The position numbers and the translations under genes were made by a program. Under the pieces are notes generated by a model, which was not told the DNA's origin, ran no database searches, and worked only from the letters and a program-made list of their open reading frames with translations. 64,000 nucleotides of DNA, from assembly GCF_001746295.1 (NCBI RefSeq), contig NZ_MJAH01000007.1, positions 272,792-336,791 of the forward strand, read 5' to 3'. Source of the stretch: Streptomyces sp. LUP47B (GTDB taxonomy: Bacteria; Actinomycetota; Actinomycetes; Streptomycetales; Streptomycetaceae). Below are positions 9,342-23,542 of this stretch, one piece after another (the stretch's first letter is position 1; the number at the start of each line of letters is the position of its first letter).

Positions 9342-10160
9342 CTATGCCGACGGGCGGGTGAAGCCGGTGGCACCGCCGTCCACCGGGAGGGCCGCGCCCG
9401 TGATGTAACTGGCTTCGGAGGACGCCAGGAAGAGGACGGCGTCGGCGAGCTCGTCCGGTTCTCCTTCTCGGAGCATGGGAGTGCTGACCCTTACCCGCTC
9501 CCGGAAGGCCTCGGCTCCGCCGGGCGGAAGGCCCGTCGTACGTGCGGCGATGTCGGTGTTCATGCCGCCCGGAATGACGATGTTGACCCGGATTCCGTCG
9601 CCGATGACTTCGGCGGCGAGGATGCGTGTCAGGTGCTCGAGGGCGGCCTTGCTGGTCCCGTAGGCGGCGGTCCCCGCGCTGGCCCGCCGGCCGGCCGCCG
9701 AGCCGCAGAAGACGACGGCCCCGCCGGGTGCGAGCAAGGGCCTGAGCCCCTGCATGAGGAAGAACGAGCCCTTGACGTTGGTGTCGAACACCATGTCCCA
9801 GGTGGCTTCGTCCATGTCGTCGAGGCGTTTGATGCCCGCCTGCCCGGCATTGAGGAAGGCGGCATCGAGGTGGTCGACCTGTGCGGCGACCTCTGTGACG
9901 GCGGCCTTGATGCCGGCCACTGAGGAGAGGTCGGCCGCCACGGCGATCGTGCCCTCGCCGATCAGATCGCTCGCGAGCTTCAGCTGGTCCGGGTCCCGCG
10001 CGATGATGATCACGCGTGCGCCCTCGCGCGCGAAGGCCTGTGCGGCCGCCAGACCCAGGCCTCTGCTGCCGCCGGTGACGAGACAGGTCTTTCCGTGGAA
10101 TCGATGACGCCGGTCGTCGACGGCCCCGTCGCTGCTTCCGGCGTCAGTCGTGTCGTTCAT
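9342..10160 (-). CDS. SDR-family oxidoreductase
   Basis: A 272-residue classical short-chain dehydrogenase. The NAD(P)-binding TGGSRGLG is near residue 30 and the adenine-pocket residues follow in IIARDPDQL. The usual NNAG is changed to LNAGQAG. The active site is Ser in FCGSAAG and Tyr-x3-Lys in AAYGTSKAAL. The tail ITGAALPVDGGATG is typical of the family. It lies 34 bp after the TPP enzyme gene and 21 bp before the VOC gene, with AGGAGAG ahead of the ATG. A hydroxyacid, alcohol or ketone intermediate of the aromatic pathway is the probable substrate, by inference. Confidence 0.88.
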   Translation of the reverse strand: MNDTTDAGSSDGAVDDRRHRFHGKTCLVTGGSRGLGLAAAQAFAREGARVIIIARDPDQLKLASDLIGEGTIAVAADLSSVAGIKAAVTEVAAQVDHLDAAFLNAGQAGIKRLDDMDEATWDMVFDTNVKGSFFLMQGLRPLLAPGGAVVFCGSAAGRRASAGTAAYGTSKAALEHLTRILAAEVIGDGIRVNIVIPGGMNTDIAARTTGLPPGGAEAFRERVRVSTPMLREGEPDELADAVLFLASSEASYITGAALPVDGGATGFTRPSA

Positions 10161-16966: not shown

Positions 16967-17713
16967 ATGACTGGGAGACTGGCGGGCAGGACCGCCGTCG
17001 TGACCGGGGGCAGTACGGGCATCGGGCAGGAGATCGCCCGCAGGCTCGCGGCGGAGGGCGCGGACATCGCCGTGGCGGACATCGATCCGGCCGAGGAGAC
17101 GCGCGAACTCGTCACACAGACCGGTCGGCGGTTCTTCAGCGACAAGGTCGACGTCTCGGACGAGGACGCGATCCAGGAGTTCGCCGCCCGGGTCCGACGT
17201 GAGCTCGGCGCCGCCGACATCCTGGTGAACAACGCGGCCGTCGTACTGCTCGCCGACATCGACCACGTGACCTTCGACGAGTGGCGTCGCACCTTCGCCG
17301 TCAACGTGGACGGCCCCTTCCTGGCCTCCAAGGCGTTCCTGCCGGACCTGAAGGAGTCCGGGGCGGGACGGATCATCAACATCACGTCGTCGAGCTACTG
17401 GACTCCACCGCCCCCCTTCGTCTCCTACATCTCCTCCAAGGGCGCGCTGAACGGGCTCACCTCTGTCCTGGCCGCCAACCTCGCCGCGCACCGCATCACC
17501 GTCAACGGCGTCGCGGCGAGCTTGGTCCGCACGGCCACGGCCGCGGAGAAGACGAGCGAGGAATTCTTCGAGCAGACCGTGCGGATGCAGAACATCAAGC
17601 GGGTGCAGATGCCGGCCGACGTCTCGGGTGTCGTCGCGTTTCTCGCCTCCGACGACGCCGCGTTCATCACGGGGCAGATCGTCGTCGCGGACGGCGGAAG
17701 CACGCGCCGCTGA
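16967..17713 (+). CDS. SDR-family oxidoreductase
   Basis: A 248-residue classical short-chain dehydrogenase. Cofactor motif TGGSTGIG is near residue 14; DIDP at the end of the second strand suggests NAD preference. NNAA replaces the usual NNAG. The active site is Ser in NITSSSY and Tyr-x3-Lys in VSYISSKGAL. The tail ITGQIVVADGGSTRR is typical. It lies behind IclR box 4, so it probably belongs to the aromatic regulon. A second SDR (9342-10160) is only distantly alike, implying two different alcohol/ketone steps. Confidence 0.88.
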   Translation: MTGRLAGRTAVVTGGSTGIGQEIARRLAAEGADIAVADIDPAEETRELVTQTGRRFFSDKVDVSDEDAIQEFAARVRRELGAADILVNNAAVVLLADIDHVTFDEWRRTFAVNVDGPFLASKAFLPDLKESGAGRIINITSSSYWTPPPPFVSYISSKGALNGLTSVLAANLAAHRITVNGVAASLVRTATAAEKTSEEFFEQTVRMQNIKRVQMPADVSGVVAFLASDDAAFITGQIVVADGGSTRR

Positions 17714-17869
17714 GGCGTCTCGTCGGAACCAACCGCTGGATCCGCACGGTAGAGCGACGAGATCACTCGATCGTGAGTTCCTCCACGGCCGCCCCCTGGG
17801 TGCCGCGATGCTCGCAAGGGCGGTGCGCGCCCAGGGCCGCCTGGCCGTACGACGGACGAGGGAGACGGC

Positions 17870-18154
17870 GTGACGCGAGATGCGGAACCGCGCGGAGGCG
17901 GGAACAGCGACAGCCAGGCACTTCTGCTGGCTGCCGGACTGGCCGATCTCGCGGTGAGCACTGTGGGTTCGGCCCTGGGGACGGTGCGAGGGCTGTTGCG
18001 CCGGTCGGACGCCACCGAGCTGGCCGGGGAGGCGGAGCGCGAACTCGTGGCGCGGGGGCGTCTGGTGCTGGACCGGTATGCGGCCGTGCCTCCGGCCCAC
18101 TTGGAGATCCTCGCCCAGCGCGCCCTGGCCCGGAAGGCCGCCGGTGGCGTATGA
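17870..18154 (+). CDS. Small protein preceding polyprenyl synthase
   Basis: A 94-residue protein with a moderately hydrophobic, alanine-rich segment (ALLLAAGLADLAVSTVGSAL, about 16-35) and an amphipathic second half (EAERELVARGRLVLDRYAAV). No family is recognised. The GTG start follows GAGGGAG. Its end overlaps the polyprenyl synthase start by 11 bp, so translation is probably coupled. It may be a partner or membrane tether of the synthase; this is inference. Confidence 0.6.
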   Translation: MTRDAEPRGGGNSDSQALLLAAGLADLAVSTVGSALGTVRGLLRRSDATELAGEAERELVARGRLVLDRYAAVPPAHLEILAQRALARKAAGGV

Positions 18155-19199
18155 GCGGTGGGAGCCGACCCTGTTCAAGGCCCGCGTGGACGAGGTGCTG
18201 CGGGGGTTCGTCGCCCGGGAGGCCGACGAGTTCGCGGCCGTCGATCCGATGCTCGGCGCCGTGGCCGAGAGACTGGAGGCGGCGGTCACGCACGGCAAGC
18301 GGCTGCGGGCGGCGTTCTGCTACTGGGGGTGGCGGGCGGTGGGGCAGCCGGACAGCGACGCACTGGTGCGGGCGGCCGCCTCGATGGAACTGGTGCATGC
18401 CGCCGCGGTCGTGCACGACGACCTCATCGACGACAGCCCGCTGAGGCACGGCCGGCCCACGACCCACGTCGCCCTGCGCGCGGCCGTAGGGGACCGTCCC
18501 GACGCCGATGCCGCCGGGCGGTCCTTGGCGATGCTGGTGGGAGACCTGCTCATGGCGCTGGCCGGGCAGTTGTTCGCGGCCAGCGGTCTGCCCGCCGCGT
18601 ATCTCGTCCGGGCCCGCCCGTTGTGGGCGGTGATGGCCCGTGAGCTGATCGCGGGCGAGTGTCTGGAGATCCTGCGTACCGGTGCCGGTCCGGACACCGA
18701 GGCGTCGCTGAAGGTGATCCGCTACAAGACCGCCAAGTACACGGTCGAACAGCCCCTGTTGATCGGTGGTGCGCTGGCCGGCGCGAGCATGCGGCTTCGC
18801 GAGGGCTACTCGGCGTACGGACTGCCGCTGGGCGAGGCGTTCCAGCTGCGGGACGACCTGCTCGGACTCTTCGGGGACCCCGAGCTCACCGGCAAGGCCA
18901 ATGCCGACGACGTGCGCGGCCGACGGCCCACCGCGCTGCTGGCGGAGACATGGCGGCTCGCCGACGACGCGGAGCGGGAGTCGCTGGACACGCTGCTGGG
19001 CCGGGACGACCCGGACGGCAACGCGCTGGACGCGGTGCGCGAGGTGATGCGCCGGCTGAAGGCGCCCGACCGCATCGAGAGCATGATCGGGGCACGGGTC
19101 GAGGAGGCTCTCGACGTCCTGCACGAACTGGATCTCCCGGCGCACGCCGAGGGCGGACTGACCGCGCTCGCGCATTCCGCGGCGGTACGCCTGTCCTGA
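18144..19199 (+). CDS. Polyprenyl (geranylgeranyl-type) diphosphate synthase
   Basis: A 351-residue trans-isoprenyl diphosphate synthase condensing isopentenyl diphosphate onto an allylic diphosphate. The first Asp-rich motif is in VVHDDLIDDSP (about 92) and the second in FQLRDDLLGLFGD (about 233). YKTAKYT and GKRLRAAFCYW are also typical. Product chain length cannot be read with certainty; small residues before the first motif would favour C20 or longer. The GTG at 18144 is the only start that keeps the N-terminal helix and overlaps the preceding gene. The following gene, 83 bp on, encodes an MpaB/Lcp-type oxygenase. Confidence 0.88.
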   Translation: MAYERWEPTLFKARVDEVLRGFVAREADEFAAVDPMLGAVAERLEAAVTHGKRLRAAFCYWGWRAVGQPDSDALVRAAASMELVHAAAVVHDDLIDDSPLRHGRPTTHVALRAAVGDRPDADAAGRSLAMLVGDLLMALAGQLFAASGLPAAYLVRARPLWAVMARELIAGECLEILRTGAGPDTEASLKVIRYKTAKYTVEQPLLIGGALAGASMRLREGYSAYGLPLGEAFQLRDDLLGLFGDPELTGKANADDVRGRRPTALLAETWRLADDAERESLDTLLGRDDPDGNALDAVREVMRRLKAPDRIESMIGARVEEALDVLHELDLPAHAEGGLTALAHSAAVRLS

Positions 19200-19282
19200 C
19201 CGCTCGCATCCGGCCCGAGCCCTGCCCCCTGCCCTGACCCCGCCTGTCGTGAACGTTCCAGAGGAAGACGAGGAACCCTGCC

Positions 19283-20437
19283 GTGGCCTACACCGACGCA
19301 TCGCTGGACGCCCTGCGGCGAACCGGGGACGAACTCGCCGACGCCACCGTCGCCGAGCTCTTCGCACGCGGGGAGGTGGGCACGTTCAACACCCTGATGC
19401 GGTATGTCTCCACGGCAGGGGCTCCCCTGCCGGAGGATCTGCCGGACGTCGCGCGTGAGTACCTCGAAGCCACCCGCACTCCGCCGTCCTGGGTGGACTG
19501 GGCGGAGATGGAGAAGGCCCGGCTGTTCTTCATCGACAACAACGTGCACATCTCCACCGCGCTGTCCTTCGCCTCGATGCCCGCCTGCTACGTCGTGCCG
19601 CACGTGGCGAAGCTGCTGTCGGCCAGTCACGGCCTGCAGTACCCGTCCAAACGGATGGCGGAGACCGGGCAGTTCACCGTTCATCTGATGCAGCCCGACG
19701 CCTTCGAGGCCGGCAGCCGCTTCATCCCCGCCGCCCAGAAGGTCCGCCTCCTGCACGCCTCCATCCGCCACCACCTCACCCGCGAGAACAGCTGGGACAC
19801 CTCAGCACTCGGGACGCCGATCTGCCAGGAGGACATGATCGGCGGGCAGATGTTCTTCTCCCTGCTCGTCCTGGACAGCCTGCACCGCCTCGGCATCCAC
19901 ATGTCGACCGAGGGCGCGGAAGCGTACTACTACGCGTGGCGCGTGGTCGGCGCCATGCTCGGCGTCGACCAGGACGCCGTCCCCCGAACCCTCGACGAGG
20001 CCCGCCGGTTCCTCGACCTGTACATGGTCCGGCACATGGGACCTTCCGAGGAGGGCGCCCATCTGACCACACAGCTGATCGACCTCTACGAGGAGGTGGT
20101 GCCCGGCACCTTCTTCGACCCCATCGTCTCCGCCCTCATCCGCCACCTCATCGGCGACACCTGCGCCGACTGGCTCCACGTGCCGCGCACCTCGTGGGAC
20201 ACCGTCGTCAAGGCCGTGCCCCACCTCCTCGGGGTCCTGGAGACCATCGAGGACCGCTCCCCGCTCGGCGCCTGGGCCCTGGACCGCCTCGGCCACCTCA
20301 CCACGGTCCTCGAACTGTCCTCGCTCACCCGTGGACGCGTCATGCACTACGCGATCCCCGAGACGCTCAAGAAGGACTACGGCATCACCGGCGTACCCCG
20401 CACCCGCCGGTGGACCCCACCGACTCCCACCGTCTGA
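19283..20437 (+). CDS. MpaB/Lcp-type oxygenase (DUF2236)
   Basis: A 384-residue member of the DUF2236 family, which includes MpaB and the latex-clearing haem oxygenase Lcp that cleaves polyisoprene. The core segment KVRLLHASIRHHL (about 153-165) holds Arg and His residues at the place of the Lcp haem-pocket residues, and QFTVHLMQPDAFEAGSRF precedes it. There is no signal peptide, so it should act in the cytoplasm or at the membrane, unlike secreted rubber oxygenases. GTG start after GAGGAA. Its position behind a polyprenyl synthase suggests oxidation of an isoprenoid chain made by its neighbour. Substrate and haem content are inferred. Confidence 0.78.
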   Translation: MAYTDASLDALRRTGDELADATVAELFARGEVGTFNTLMRYVSTAGAPLPEDLPDVAREYLEATRTPPSWVDWAEMEKARLFFIDNNVHISTALSFASMPACYVVPHVAKLLSASHGLQYPSKRMAETGQFTVHLMQPDAFEAGSRFIPAAQKVRLLHASIRHHLTRENSWDTSALGTPICQEDMIGGQMFFSLLVLDSLHRLGIHMSTEGAEAYYYAWRVVGAMLGVDQDAVPRTLDEARRFLDLYMVRHMGPSEEGAHLTTQLIDLYEEVVPGTFFDPIVSALIRHLIGDTCADWLHVPRTSWDTVVKAVPHLLGVLETIEDRSPLGAWALDRLGHLTTVLELSSLTRGRVMHYAIPETLKKDYGITGVPRTRRWTPPTPTV

Positions 20438-20460
20438 CGACCCCCCGCGATTTTAGTATT

Positions 20461-20490
20461 TTGACATAGGTTTCTTTTCATAGGTAACTT
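20461..20490 (+). promoter_or_regulatory. Promoter for MarR gene, probably leaderless
   Basis: An AT-rich island with a -35-like TTGACA (20461-20466), 18 bp, and a -10-like TAACTT (20485-20490). The GTG start is only 7 bp further on, where transcription should begin, so the mRNA may be leaderless. A direct repeat CATAGGT (20465, 20479) overlaps the promoter and could bind the MarR protein. Confidence 0.5.
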
Positions 20491-20496
20491 TGTGTC

Positions 20497-20979
20497 GTGA
20501 CCGGAATCAGTGAGGCTCCCGCGAGCCAGGGTGTCGACCAGGTGGCCGCAGGCCTCGTGGCGTGCCTGCCCACGCTGAACCGGTACGTCAAACAGAGCAT
20601 CGACCGGCGATGGCCGTATCCCAAGCTCCCCGAGCGGCAGTTGGCCCTGCTCCAGTACGTCGCCGAGCACGACGGCGCGACCGTCCACCAGGCTGCCGAC
20701 GCGCTGCGGATGATGCCGAACAACGTCAGCGCCCTGGTCACCCGCCTCACCGACGCGGGTCTGCTGGAACGGCACCAGGACGAGGCCGACAAGCGTGTCG
20801 CGCACCTGCGTGTCACCGCCAAGGCGCGTCAACGCATCCGCCAGGCCGAGGACGTCGCGGCGCGACAGCTCGCGGCCGCGCTGCGGACCCTCACGGACGG
20901 CGACCGCGACGCCCTCGGCTCGGCGCTCGGCGCCCTCGAGGCTCTCACCCGGCGCCTGCGCGACCACTCCGCCACCTGA
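20497..20979 (+). CDS. MarR-family regulator
   Basis: A 160-residue MarR protein. Its winged helix spans ATVHQAADALRMMPNNVSAL with the wing DEADKRVAHLRVTAKA, flanked by the N- and C-terminal dimer helices. It lies directly upstream of a DHA2 exporter in the same direction, a common drug-responsive pair in which MarR represses both itself and the pump. The GTG start sits at the expected transcription start. Confidence 0.9.
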   Translation: MTGISEAPASQGVDQVAAGLVACLPTLNRYVKQSIDRRWPYPKLPERQLALLQYVAEHDGATVHQAADALRMMPNNVSALVTRLTDAGLLERHQDEADKRVAHLRVTAKARQRIRQAEDVAARQLAAALRTLTDGDRDALGSALGALEALTRRLRDHSAT

Positions 20980-21130
20980 CCGTCCGGTCCGGACGCCGTA
21001 CGCCTCCTGCCCTCGCCGCTGCTGCGGCAGGGCCGGGTGTGCTGCCCCCTGCGCAGCCGCCGCACACGGCTCGCCCCCACTTGTCCACGCGCCCCAGCCG
21101 CGCGCCGCACATCCCGAGGACAGCTCACAC

Positions 21131-23542
21131 ATGTCTGTCACCGCTGTTTCCACAGCGCCCACACCCGTGTCCGACCCCCATCCCCGCGGTCTTCGCGCCA
21201 ACCCCTGGCTGACGCTGATCGCCGTCGCGCTCGGCCTGTTCATGGTCGGCCTCGACGGTTCCGTCGTCTCGATCGCCAACGCCGAGATCGCCCGCGACCT
21301 GAACGCCACCACCGCCGAACTGCAGTGGGTCACCAACTCATACCTCCTCGCCCTCGCCGCCGCCCTCATCCTCGGCGGCAAGCTCGGCGACCGCTTCGGG
21401 CGACGCACGGTCTACCTCGTCGGCGTCGTCGGATTCACCCTCGCGTCCGTCGCGATCGGCCTCGCCGGTTCGATCGAGGGTGTCATCGCCTTCCGGGCCC
21501 TGCAGGGCCTCTTCGGCGCGATGCTCATGCCCAACACCCTGGCGTTGCTGCGTGCGGTCTTCCCGCCGAAGAAGTTCGGCATGGCGGTCGGTATCTGGGC
21601 GATGATCTCGTCCGTCGCCACCGCGCTCGGCCCGATCGTCGGCGGACTGCTCGTCCAGCATGTCAACTGGGAGTCCGTCTTCTACATCAACGCCCCCATC
21701 GGCGTGATCGCCCTGGTCTTCGGTCTCGTGGTACTGCCACAGTCCAGGAACGAGGCGGCGGCGAGCGAGAAGTTCGACGTGGCCGGCGTCGTTCTGCTCG
21801 CGCTCGGCCTGCTCGCCGTCGTCTTCGGCGTCGTCAAGGGCGAGACGTGGGGCTGGACTTCGGCCGACACGCTCGGCGTGATCGCCGGGGGTCTGATCGT
21901 CCTTGTCCTCTTCGGCTGGTACGAGACCCGCGTCGCGCACCCTCTCCTGCCCATGCGGCTGTTCCGCAACCCGGCCCTGACCATCGGTACGGTCGTCACC
22001 GCGCTGAACTTCTTCGTCCTGCTCGGTGTGATCTTCTTCGTGATGCTGTACCTGCAGAACGTGCACGGCTTCACGCCCGTGGAGTCCGGTGTGCGCACCC
22101 TGCCGCTCAGCCTCGCCTCCATGGTGGCCTCGCCGCTCGGCGCGAAGCTCACCGAGAAGTTCGGCCCGCGTCTGACCATGCCGCTCGGGATGGTGCTGCA
22201 GGCCGGCGCCGCGTTCACGATGCTCGCGTGGAGCGCCGACTCCTCGTACGCCGCCATGTGGCCGCCGTTCGTCGCGCTCGGTCTCGGCGTCGGCATCGTG
22301 ATGGCCGCGTCCTCCGACGCGATCGTCGGCAACGCCCCCGTCAAGGACGGCGGTATCGCCGGTGGCCTCCAGGCCACGTCGCTCCAGGTCGGCGGCGCGC
22401 TCGGCACCTCGGTGCTCGTCTCCCTCATCAGCAGCCGCGTCGGCTCCACGCTCACGGACTCACTGACCGACGCCGGCGTGCCCCACTCGGCGGCCGCTCG
22501 CTTCGAGGAGGCGAAGGACGCGGTCGCGATGGGCGTCACCCCGGTCTCCGACGCGATGCCCGCCCAGCTCAGGGCGGCGGTGGTGGAGGGCAGCCACACC
22601 GCGTTCATGAACGGCGTCCACACCGCCGTCCTGGTCACCGGCGTCCTCGCCCTGGTGGGCGCCGCCCTCGCGGCGTTGGGCCTCCGCGGCCGGGAGGACG
22701 GGCCCCACGAGCACACCGAGAGCACCGAGAGCACCGAGCACGACGCGAAGGCGCCGAACCCCGCCGCAGTCCGGTCCTCCGCCGGCGTCCCGGTCGGCGG
22801 GCACGTCATCGGCGCCGAGTCGGCACCCGTGCCGCGGGCGGTCATCACCCTGATCTCGCTGGGCGGGCGGCAGCTGGGCCGCATGGTGGCCCACTCGGAC
22901 GGCGCGTACACGATGGACGCGCCGGGCGCGGGAAGCTACGTGCTCATCGCCTCCGCCGAGGGCTACCAGCCGCAGGCGTCCACTGTCGTCGTCGGCGGCG
23001 AGCCGGTCTCGTACGACATCCTGCTCTCCGGCACCAGCGGCCTGGTCGGCACGGTCAGGTCGGCCGACCTCGGGAAGCCGGTCGCCGGCGCCATGGTGGT
23101 CGCGGCCGACGTGCGCGGCGAGGTGCGCGCCGCCGGGCTCTCCGACGCGGACGGCACCTTCGCCTTCGGCGAGCTGGCGCCCGGCCCGCTGACCCTCGCG
23201 GTGACCGCGGCCGGCTACCGGCCGATCGCGCTGCCCGTCGAGATCGCCGCGCAGGGCGTCACCAGGACCGAGCTCGAACTCTCCCCCGGGCTGCACGCGC
23301 GGGGCAGTGTCCAAGCCGCGGGCCGGCCGCTGAACGACGCGCGGGTCACGCTCATCGACACGGCGGGCAACGTGGTGGCCACCGCGACCACCGGCGAGGA
23401 CGGCGCCTATGCCTTCACCGACCTCGACGGCGGCGAGTACACGGTCACCGCAGCCGGCTACCCGCCGAAGGCCACCCAGGTGACCGTGCACGGCTCGGGC
23501 GTGGAAAGCCACGACATCGAGCTCGCCCACCCGGGCGAGTGA
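21131..23542 (+). CDS. DHA2-type MFS exporter with three C-terminal Ig-like repeats
   Basis: An 803-residue fusion. Residues about 25-520 form a 14-helix drug:proton antiporter (LDGSVVSIANAEIARDL, GGKLGDRFGRRTVYLVG). An acidic low-complexity linker (TESTESTEH) follows. Then three repeats of about 80 residues resemble carboxypeptidase regulatory-like or transthyretin-like domains, each with a G-V-x-x-A--P...A-V core and a DGAY or DGTF turn (about 550-635, 636-720 and 721-803). An even number of helices would put the repeats in the cytoplasm. Plain DHA2 pumps end near 520. It is regulated by the MarR protein upstream, and two hairpins terminate it. Confidence 0.9.
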   Translation: MSVTAVSTAPTPVSDPHPRGLRANPWLTLIAVALGLFMVGLDGSVVSIANAEIARDLNATTAELQWVTNSYLLALAAALILGGKLGDRFGRRTVYLVGVVGFTLASVAIGLAGSIEGVIAFRALQGLFGAMLMPNTLALLRAVFPPKKFGMAVGIWAMISSVATALGPIVGGLLVQHVNWESVFYINAPIGVIALVFGLVVLPQSRNEAAASEKFDVAGVVLLALGLLAVVFGVVKGETWGWTSADTLGVIAGGLIVLVLFGWYETRVAHPLLPMRLFRNPALTIGTVVTALNFFVLLGVIFFVMLYLQNVHGFTPVESGVRTLPLSLASMVASPLGAKLTEKFGPRLTMPLGMVLQAGAAFTMLAWSADSSYAAMWPPFVALGLGVGIVMAASSDAIVGNAPVKDGGIAGGLQATSLQVGGALGTSVLVSLISSRVGSTLTDSLTDAGVPHSAAARFEEAKDAVAMGVTPVSDAMPAQLRAAVVEGSHTAFMNGVHTAVLVTGVLALVGAALAALGLRGREDGPHEHTESTESTEHDAKAPNPAAVRSSAGVPVGGHVIGAESAPVPRAVITLISLGGRQLGRMVAHSDGAYTMDAPGAGSYVLIASAEGYQPQASTVVVGGEPVSYDILLSGTSGLVGTVRSADLGKPVAGAMVVAADVRGEVRAAGLSDADGTFAFGELAPGPLTLAVTAAGYRPIALPVEIAAQGVTRTELELSPGLHARGSVQAAGRPLNDARVTLIDTAGNVVATATTGEDGAYAFTDLDGGEYTVTAAGYPPKATQVTVHGSGVESHDIELAHPGE

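Follow-up and report, generated by a model that had tools for sequence, protein, structure and literature searches.

Two-component long-chain synthases such as HexA/HexB and HepS/HepT consist of a catalytic subunit and a small non-catalytic protein that is encoded with it. Among haem enzymes, both LcpK30 and t-anethole oxygenase cleave C=C bonds (PMC5522427, PMC12724181). The proximal ligand of LcpK30 is His198, and its distal side is closed by Lys167; activity requires R164 and T168, which together with H198 are described as crucial active-site residues, while Glu148 is the base within an otherwise hydrophobic tunnel and is needed for full rubber cleavage (PMC5522427). Lys occupies the position of LcpK30 residue 167 in 59% of 495 Lcp sequences (PMC5522427). 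Cleavage inside a biosynthetic pathway is known from MpaB, which acts on a farnesyl side chain in the formation of mycophenolic acid (PMC12724181). Here we describe a Streptomyces cassette in which a gene of the MpaB/Lcp family follows a polyprenyl diphosphate synthase (PPS) gene and a small coupled gene.

Gene layout

The window, i.e. the whole stretch of 64,000 nucleotides that was analysed, is part of an 11.0-Mb genome whose nearest relatives are Streptomyces. A sequence-only reading had proposed that a small coupled protein, a PPS and an oxygenase are encoded in tandem, and all three genes are indeed present on the + strand, in a unit of only 2.6 kb:

17870..18154, + strand: small helical protein of 94 aa, of no known family; putative PPS partner
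18144..19199, + strand: trans-polyprenyl diphosphate synthase (PPS), GTG start (PF00348, E 3e-41)
19283..20437, + strand: haem oxygenase of the MpaB/Lcp family (PF09995), predicted to be cytosolic

The GTG start of the PPS gene at 18144 falls within the 3' end of the small gene, so that the two genes overlap by 11 nt; the ATG at 18078, where the listed ORF begins, is an upstream over-extension and was corrected to this GTG. The same 11-nt spacing is kept in 97 of the 111 loci measured and is 20 nt in a divergent clade, and the identity of the overlap across loci points to translational coupling. The GTG of the oxygenase gene at 19283 lies 83 nt past the PPS end at 19199 and is preceded by a ribosome-site-like stretch, GAGGAAGACGAGGA. 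No terminator-like site was found on the + strand between 17700 and 20700, and an Rfam scan of 17000-21000 gave no match.

Distribution and mobility of the cassette

A close orthologue of the oxygenase was found in 96 of 296 Streptomyces genomes and the small protein in 97. The two occur together in 96 genomes, the oxygenase never occurs alone, the small protein occurs alone in one, and 199 genomes have neither (Fisher p ~2e-78, which is descriptive only, the genomes being related). About one third of the sampled Streptomyces species therefore carry the cassette. The lone small-protein genome, G141, holds only a deletion remnant, which consists of the box described below and ~41 codons from the start of the small gene. 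This remnant lies at about 9820-10090 of locus L081, and its box differs by one base.

The order and strand small gene-PPS-oxygenase are the same in 79 of 80 named loci taken from the GTDB species set. Locus L102 was considered as a counterexample and rejected, since a scaffold join with N and a transposase-like sequence precede the oxygenase there. In a further 34 loci (oxygenase identity at least 63%), the PPS gene is in place throughout, and the small protein, although missed by BLAST in two of them, is present there as an ORF. The cassette also occurs in the same order on five Streptomyces plasmids. Meanwhile, eight genomes of g239, a genus that belongs to the same order but to a different family, have the oxygenase at 67-69% identity; in seven of them it is adjoined by the PPS gene and accompanied by a recognisable small protein, and the eighth is cut at a contig end. 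No orthologue outside Streptomyces turned up when 397 genomes of the phylum were sampled, no PPS neighbour was seen beside distant oxygenase relatives (28-35% identity), and a phage search gave distant matches only. The genome search for the same pair, as the sequence-only reading had proposed, thus excludes adjacency in this strain alone, given the 96 genomes, the plasmids and g239.

The protein distances of the three genes are correlated, with r of 0.87-0.91 across 110 loci and of 0.67-0.80 when the main clade is taken by itself, against a permutation maximum of 0.28. The oxygenase is the most conserved of the three (median distance 0.13, versus 0.22 and 0.30 for its partners). As order and co-occurrence hold across genomes, the three genes form a true unit.

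The surroundings of this unit change from locus to locus: the upstream flanks of 112 loci fall into 85 contexts and the downstream flanks of 109 loci into 84, and the neighbours in the gene tables of the cassette loci are unrelated. A comparison of neighbours in the 20-kb loci found no constant neighbour gene. The differing flanks indicate that the unit moves as a cassette, and they place the upstream SDR gene (16967-17713) and the downstream MarR/MFS pair outside it. The cassette is a self-contained, horizontally moving unit.

Several individual loci deserve mention. In the window, the MarR gene (20497-20979) adjoins the MFS transporter gene (21131-23539, + strand), and the transporter has, in one open frame, a C-terminal tail with three CarboxypepD_reg (carboxypeptidase-regulatory-like) repeats. 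One genome has two cassettes (G248:C1:7592594 and 201074; L065), whose oxygenases are 86% and 65% identical to the window copy. A second PPS-like gene (32% identity) lies directly upstream of the cassette in G622 (L199:7124-7951). In g239, a gene for a NIT/HATPase sensor kinase is found downstream of the cassette (L203 10915-13968, with equivalents in L205-L208), and it resembles the first gene of a 'conservon'. Distant oxygenase homologues (26-29%) are present in G278:C77, G195:C21, G053:C9, G087:C22, G221:C91 and G118:C1, several as tandem pairs; their alignments cross a single in-frame TGA, which may be a true stop near the C-terminus.

A conserved box upstream of the cassette

When 112 upstream regions were compared by k-mers and by columns, a conserved block emerged, whose parts in the window are as follows:

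17742..17812, + strand: conserved upstream block
17742-17747, + strand: CCGCAC, part of the block
17763-17779, + strand: box TCACTCGATCGTGAGTT, ~100 nt upstream of the small gene
17807-17812, + strand: GATGCT, in a -10-like position at a fixed distance downstream of the box

The best k-mer is present in 49 of the 112 upstream regions and in none of the control regions, and a 20-mer seed is found with at most five mismatches in 86 of the 112 loci. A degenerate exact pattern was searched for in 121 genomes: of its 13 matches, 12 lie at the cassette, whereas the reversed-pattern control has none. We infer that the block is a promoter/operator, and the position of the box suggests a site for an activator or a repressor.

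The genome under study has one other site with no more than two mismatches to the box (it has two). This site resembles the SOS box of lexA, which we take to be a coincidence. We rejected control of the cassette by LexA on two grounds: an SOS box requires A at position 10, where all 86 aligned cassette boxes carry T, and the four bases at the SOS spacer are conserved in these boxes. The box was also compared with the BldM site, whose published form is TCAC-N8-GTGA; the spacing in the cassette box is N6.

The synthase and the small protein

The PPS motifs DDxID, GKR, FQLRDD and KT are invariant in 20 relatives. In the second DDxxD the third Asp is replaced by Gly, as it is in the nearest solved relatives, 3lk5 (a GGPP synthase) and 8f8f (an FPP synthase). 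Before the first DDxxD, at the two positions that limit chain length, the cassette PPS has Ala at both -4 and -5, which is smaller than the Trp at -5 of 8f8f and similar to the Cys-Ala of 3lk5. Small residues at this place suggest a product chain of C20 or longer. The best NCBIfam score of the PPS lies under every equivalog cut-off (215 bits versus 600).

The small protein is annotated by NCBI as 'polyprenyl synthetase', although it has no domain in common with that family. It has no Pfam or NCBIfam match, and fold and profile searches found no relatives in the PDB. Residues G23, R45, D47, R62, G63, E79 and A82 are invariant, and its AlphaFold model has three helices, with pLDDT 76 and a pTM of 0.31, i.e. 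a low global confidence. The translational coupling, together with the analogy to two-component synthases, suggests that the small protein may be a partner of the PPS.

The oxygenase

The sequence-only reading had assigned the oxygenase to the MpaB/Lcp family, and this is borne out by the PF09995 match (66.8 bits, cut-off 23) and by a preserved haem pocket. Against LcpK30 (5o1l/5o1m), phmmer gives E ~8e-31, and the structural model (pLDDT 78, weaker towards the C-terminus) has a TM of 0.77 to 5o1l and of 0.51 to 8s1j, a t-anethole oxygenase. The haem-pocket residues R124, T128, R155, H158, R162 and R287, which are the equivalents of LcpK30 R164, T168, R195, H198, R202 and R328, are present in 114 of 114 orthologues. 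Judged by these residues, the protein should bind haem b.

Two other positions differ. The base E148 of LcpK30 is V108 here and Val in 109 of the 114 orthologues, so any C=C chemistry would need another base or none. The distal ligand K167 is E127 here, with Glu in 104 and Asn in eight of the 114 orthologues, and the enzyme probably lacks the Lys-closed resting state. The proposed kinship with Lcp thus stands for family, fold and haem pocket and fails at E148 and K167; with both changed, the protein is not a rubber oxygenase of known type, and Lcp chemistry cannot simply be transferred to it. In agreement with the sequence-only reading, a signal peptide is lacking: neither the window protein nor its orthologues have a strongly hydrophobic N-terminal segment such as a secretion signal would need, and across the orthologues the highest 15-aa KD mean within the first 45 residues is 1.09. 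The substrate should accordingly come from inside the cell.

A proposed pathway and its alternatives

The strict co-inheritance of PPS and oxygenase across many contexts argues for a functional link between them. We propose a minimal pathway in which an isoprenoid chain is made by the PPS and then attacked at C=C by the oxygenase, and we regard the chances of this proposal as about even. The PPS, complexed with the coupled small helical protein, would use IPP and an allylic primer from the host and form an all-trans prenyl diphosphate of about C20 or longer. The haem-b oxygenase, with O2, would then attack a C=C bond of this chain, or of the alcohol freed from it by host phosphatases. The most likely outcome would be cleavage to an aldehyde or ketone apo-isoprenoid, and epoxidation or hydroxylation would be less likely.

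The chain-making step is derived from the PPS sequence, whose motifs are intact. The cleavage step is derived from the chemistry of the family, and the loss of E148 makes it less secure; in its favour are the fold match to two C=C-cleaving haem enzymes and the equivalents of R164, T168 and H198, which all orthologues keep. Against the pathway as a whole stand the Val at E148 and the Glu or Asn at K167, the lack of a phosphatase, cyclase or transferase gene in the cassette, and the oxygenase relatives at 28-35% identity that have no adjoining PPS. In addition, PF09995 leaves the substrate unfixed, since the alkenes attacked within the family include rubber, NBR, anethole and farnesyl phthalide.

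This chemical breadth also favours the strongest alternative, that the oxygenase epoxidises, hydroxylates or desaturates the PPS chain, or a host product derived from it (such as a prenylated quinone or a terpene whose cyclase is encoded outside the cassette), without cleavage. The loss of both the catalytic base and the distal Lys of Lcp fits such a reaction, and the large Streptomyces genomes that carry the cassette can supply partner enzymes in trans. However, no third partner is constantly adjacent, and the two solved structures that the model resembles belong to C=C-cleaving enzymes. We consider non-cleaving oxidation a possible explanation, though an appreciably less probable one than the minimal pathway.

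The haem protein might instead be a globin-like gas or redox sensor, or a regulator of the complex of PPS and small protein. The globin fold of LcpK30 resembles globin-coupled sensors (PMC5522427), two catalytic residues are changed, and the oxygenase has diverged less than its partners have (0.13 versus 0.22 and 0.30). Yet the invariant residues include the catalytic R164 and T168 and thus go beyond those that anchor the haem, and no sensor-output domain is fused to the protein, which makes a sensor improbable.

The sequence-only reading had also named an apo-carotenoid-like product, for which no specific support was found. If the PPS gave GGPP to carotenoid synthesis and the oxygenase made apo-carotenoids, this would suit the predicted GGPP or longer product and the cleavage of isoprenoid C=C bonds known in the family; however, a strong lycopene-cyclase match is missing from 41 of the 96 cassette genomes. 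Such a match is present in 55 of 96 cassette genomes and 91 of 200 others, a weak association (p = 0.06) in a test that covers cyclic carotenoids, and we think carotenoid cleavage very unlikely. Still less credit can be given to a family-2 encapsulin with the PPS as cargo and the small protein as loading element. Among the NCBIfam models that match the PPS, f2_encap_cargo4 ranks second (E 2e-55), but its 189 bits are below the cut-off of 450. The PPS has no long extension at its N-terminus, and the 20-kb cassette loci have no constant neighbour gene. Finally, an intracellular Lcp that degrades rubber or polyisoprene would have family and fold in common with the oxygenase, but the lack of a secretion signal, the absence of E148 and K167, the pairing with a chain-making enzyme and the presence of the cassette in about a third of the sampled Streptomyces make this reading barely tenable.

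Returning to chain synthesis followed by C=C attack, a broader and more tentative picture can be drawn, which we hold to be rather doubtful as a whole. A widespread mobile pathway of Streptomyces and a related family would make a dedicated prenyl diphosphate with the help of an accessory subunit of a new type, and a globin-fold haem oxygenase of altered chemistry would cleave it in the cytosol. The products would be small apo-isoprenoids of a so far unrecognised class, perhaps volatile compounds or signals, and the pathway would be controlled by a regulator of its own with roughly one binding site per genome.

Each enzyme comes from a known family, while the mobile three-gene arrangement, the small protein, the altered oxygenase site and the private box appear to be undescribed. 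A search of open-access PMC text found nothing on the gene pair, which may have been described elsewhere. Streptomyces terpenoids have been sought mainly via terpene cyclases, and the cassette, which has none constantly nearby, could escape such mining, common and self-contained as it is in about a third of the sampled species and in a second family. Cleavage of prenyl chains by the oxygenase, if confirmed, would extend a family known mostly for rubber degradation by a biosynthetic branch that works in the cytosol and has a changed active site.

Comparison with known systems

The closest sequence relatives of the cassette PPS are actinobacterial short-chain synthases (3lk5, 8f8f and the mycobacterial GFPPS model NF042416), with which it has the catalytic motifs in common. 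In contrast to them, it is preceded by a coupled small protein and has Ala, not Trp, at -5. The encoding of a small protein alongside a catalytic synthase is analogous to HexA/HexB and HepS/HepT; however, the small protein of the cassette has no sequence or fold match to any solved protein. With MpaB and the bacterial members of its family (t-anethole oxygenase 8s1j, Nro1), the cassette oxygenase has PF09995 in common, whereas MpaB is a fungal protein bound to the ER, with a prenylated phthalide as its substrate, and the cassette has no genes for an aromatic substrate. LcpK30 of Streptomyces sp. K30 resembles the oxygenase in its fold, proximal His, haem-anchoring Arg and active-site R164 and T168, but LcpK30 is secreted and degrades rubber, whereas the cassette oxygenase lacks a signal peptide and is encoded in an operon with a PPS.
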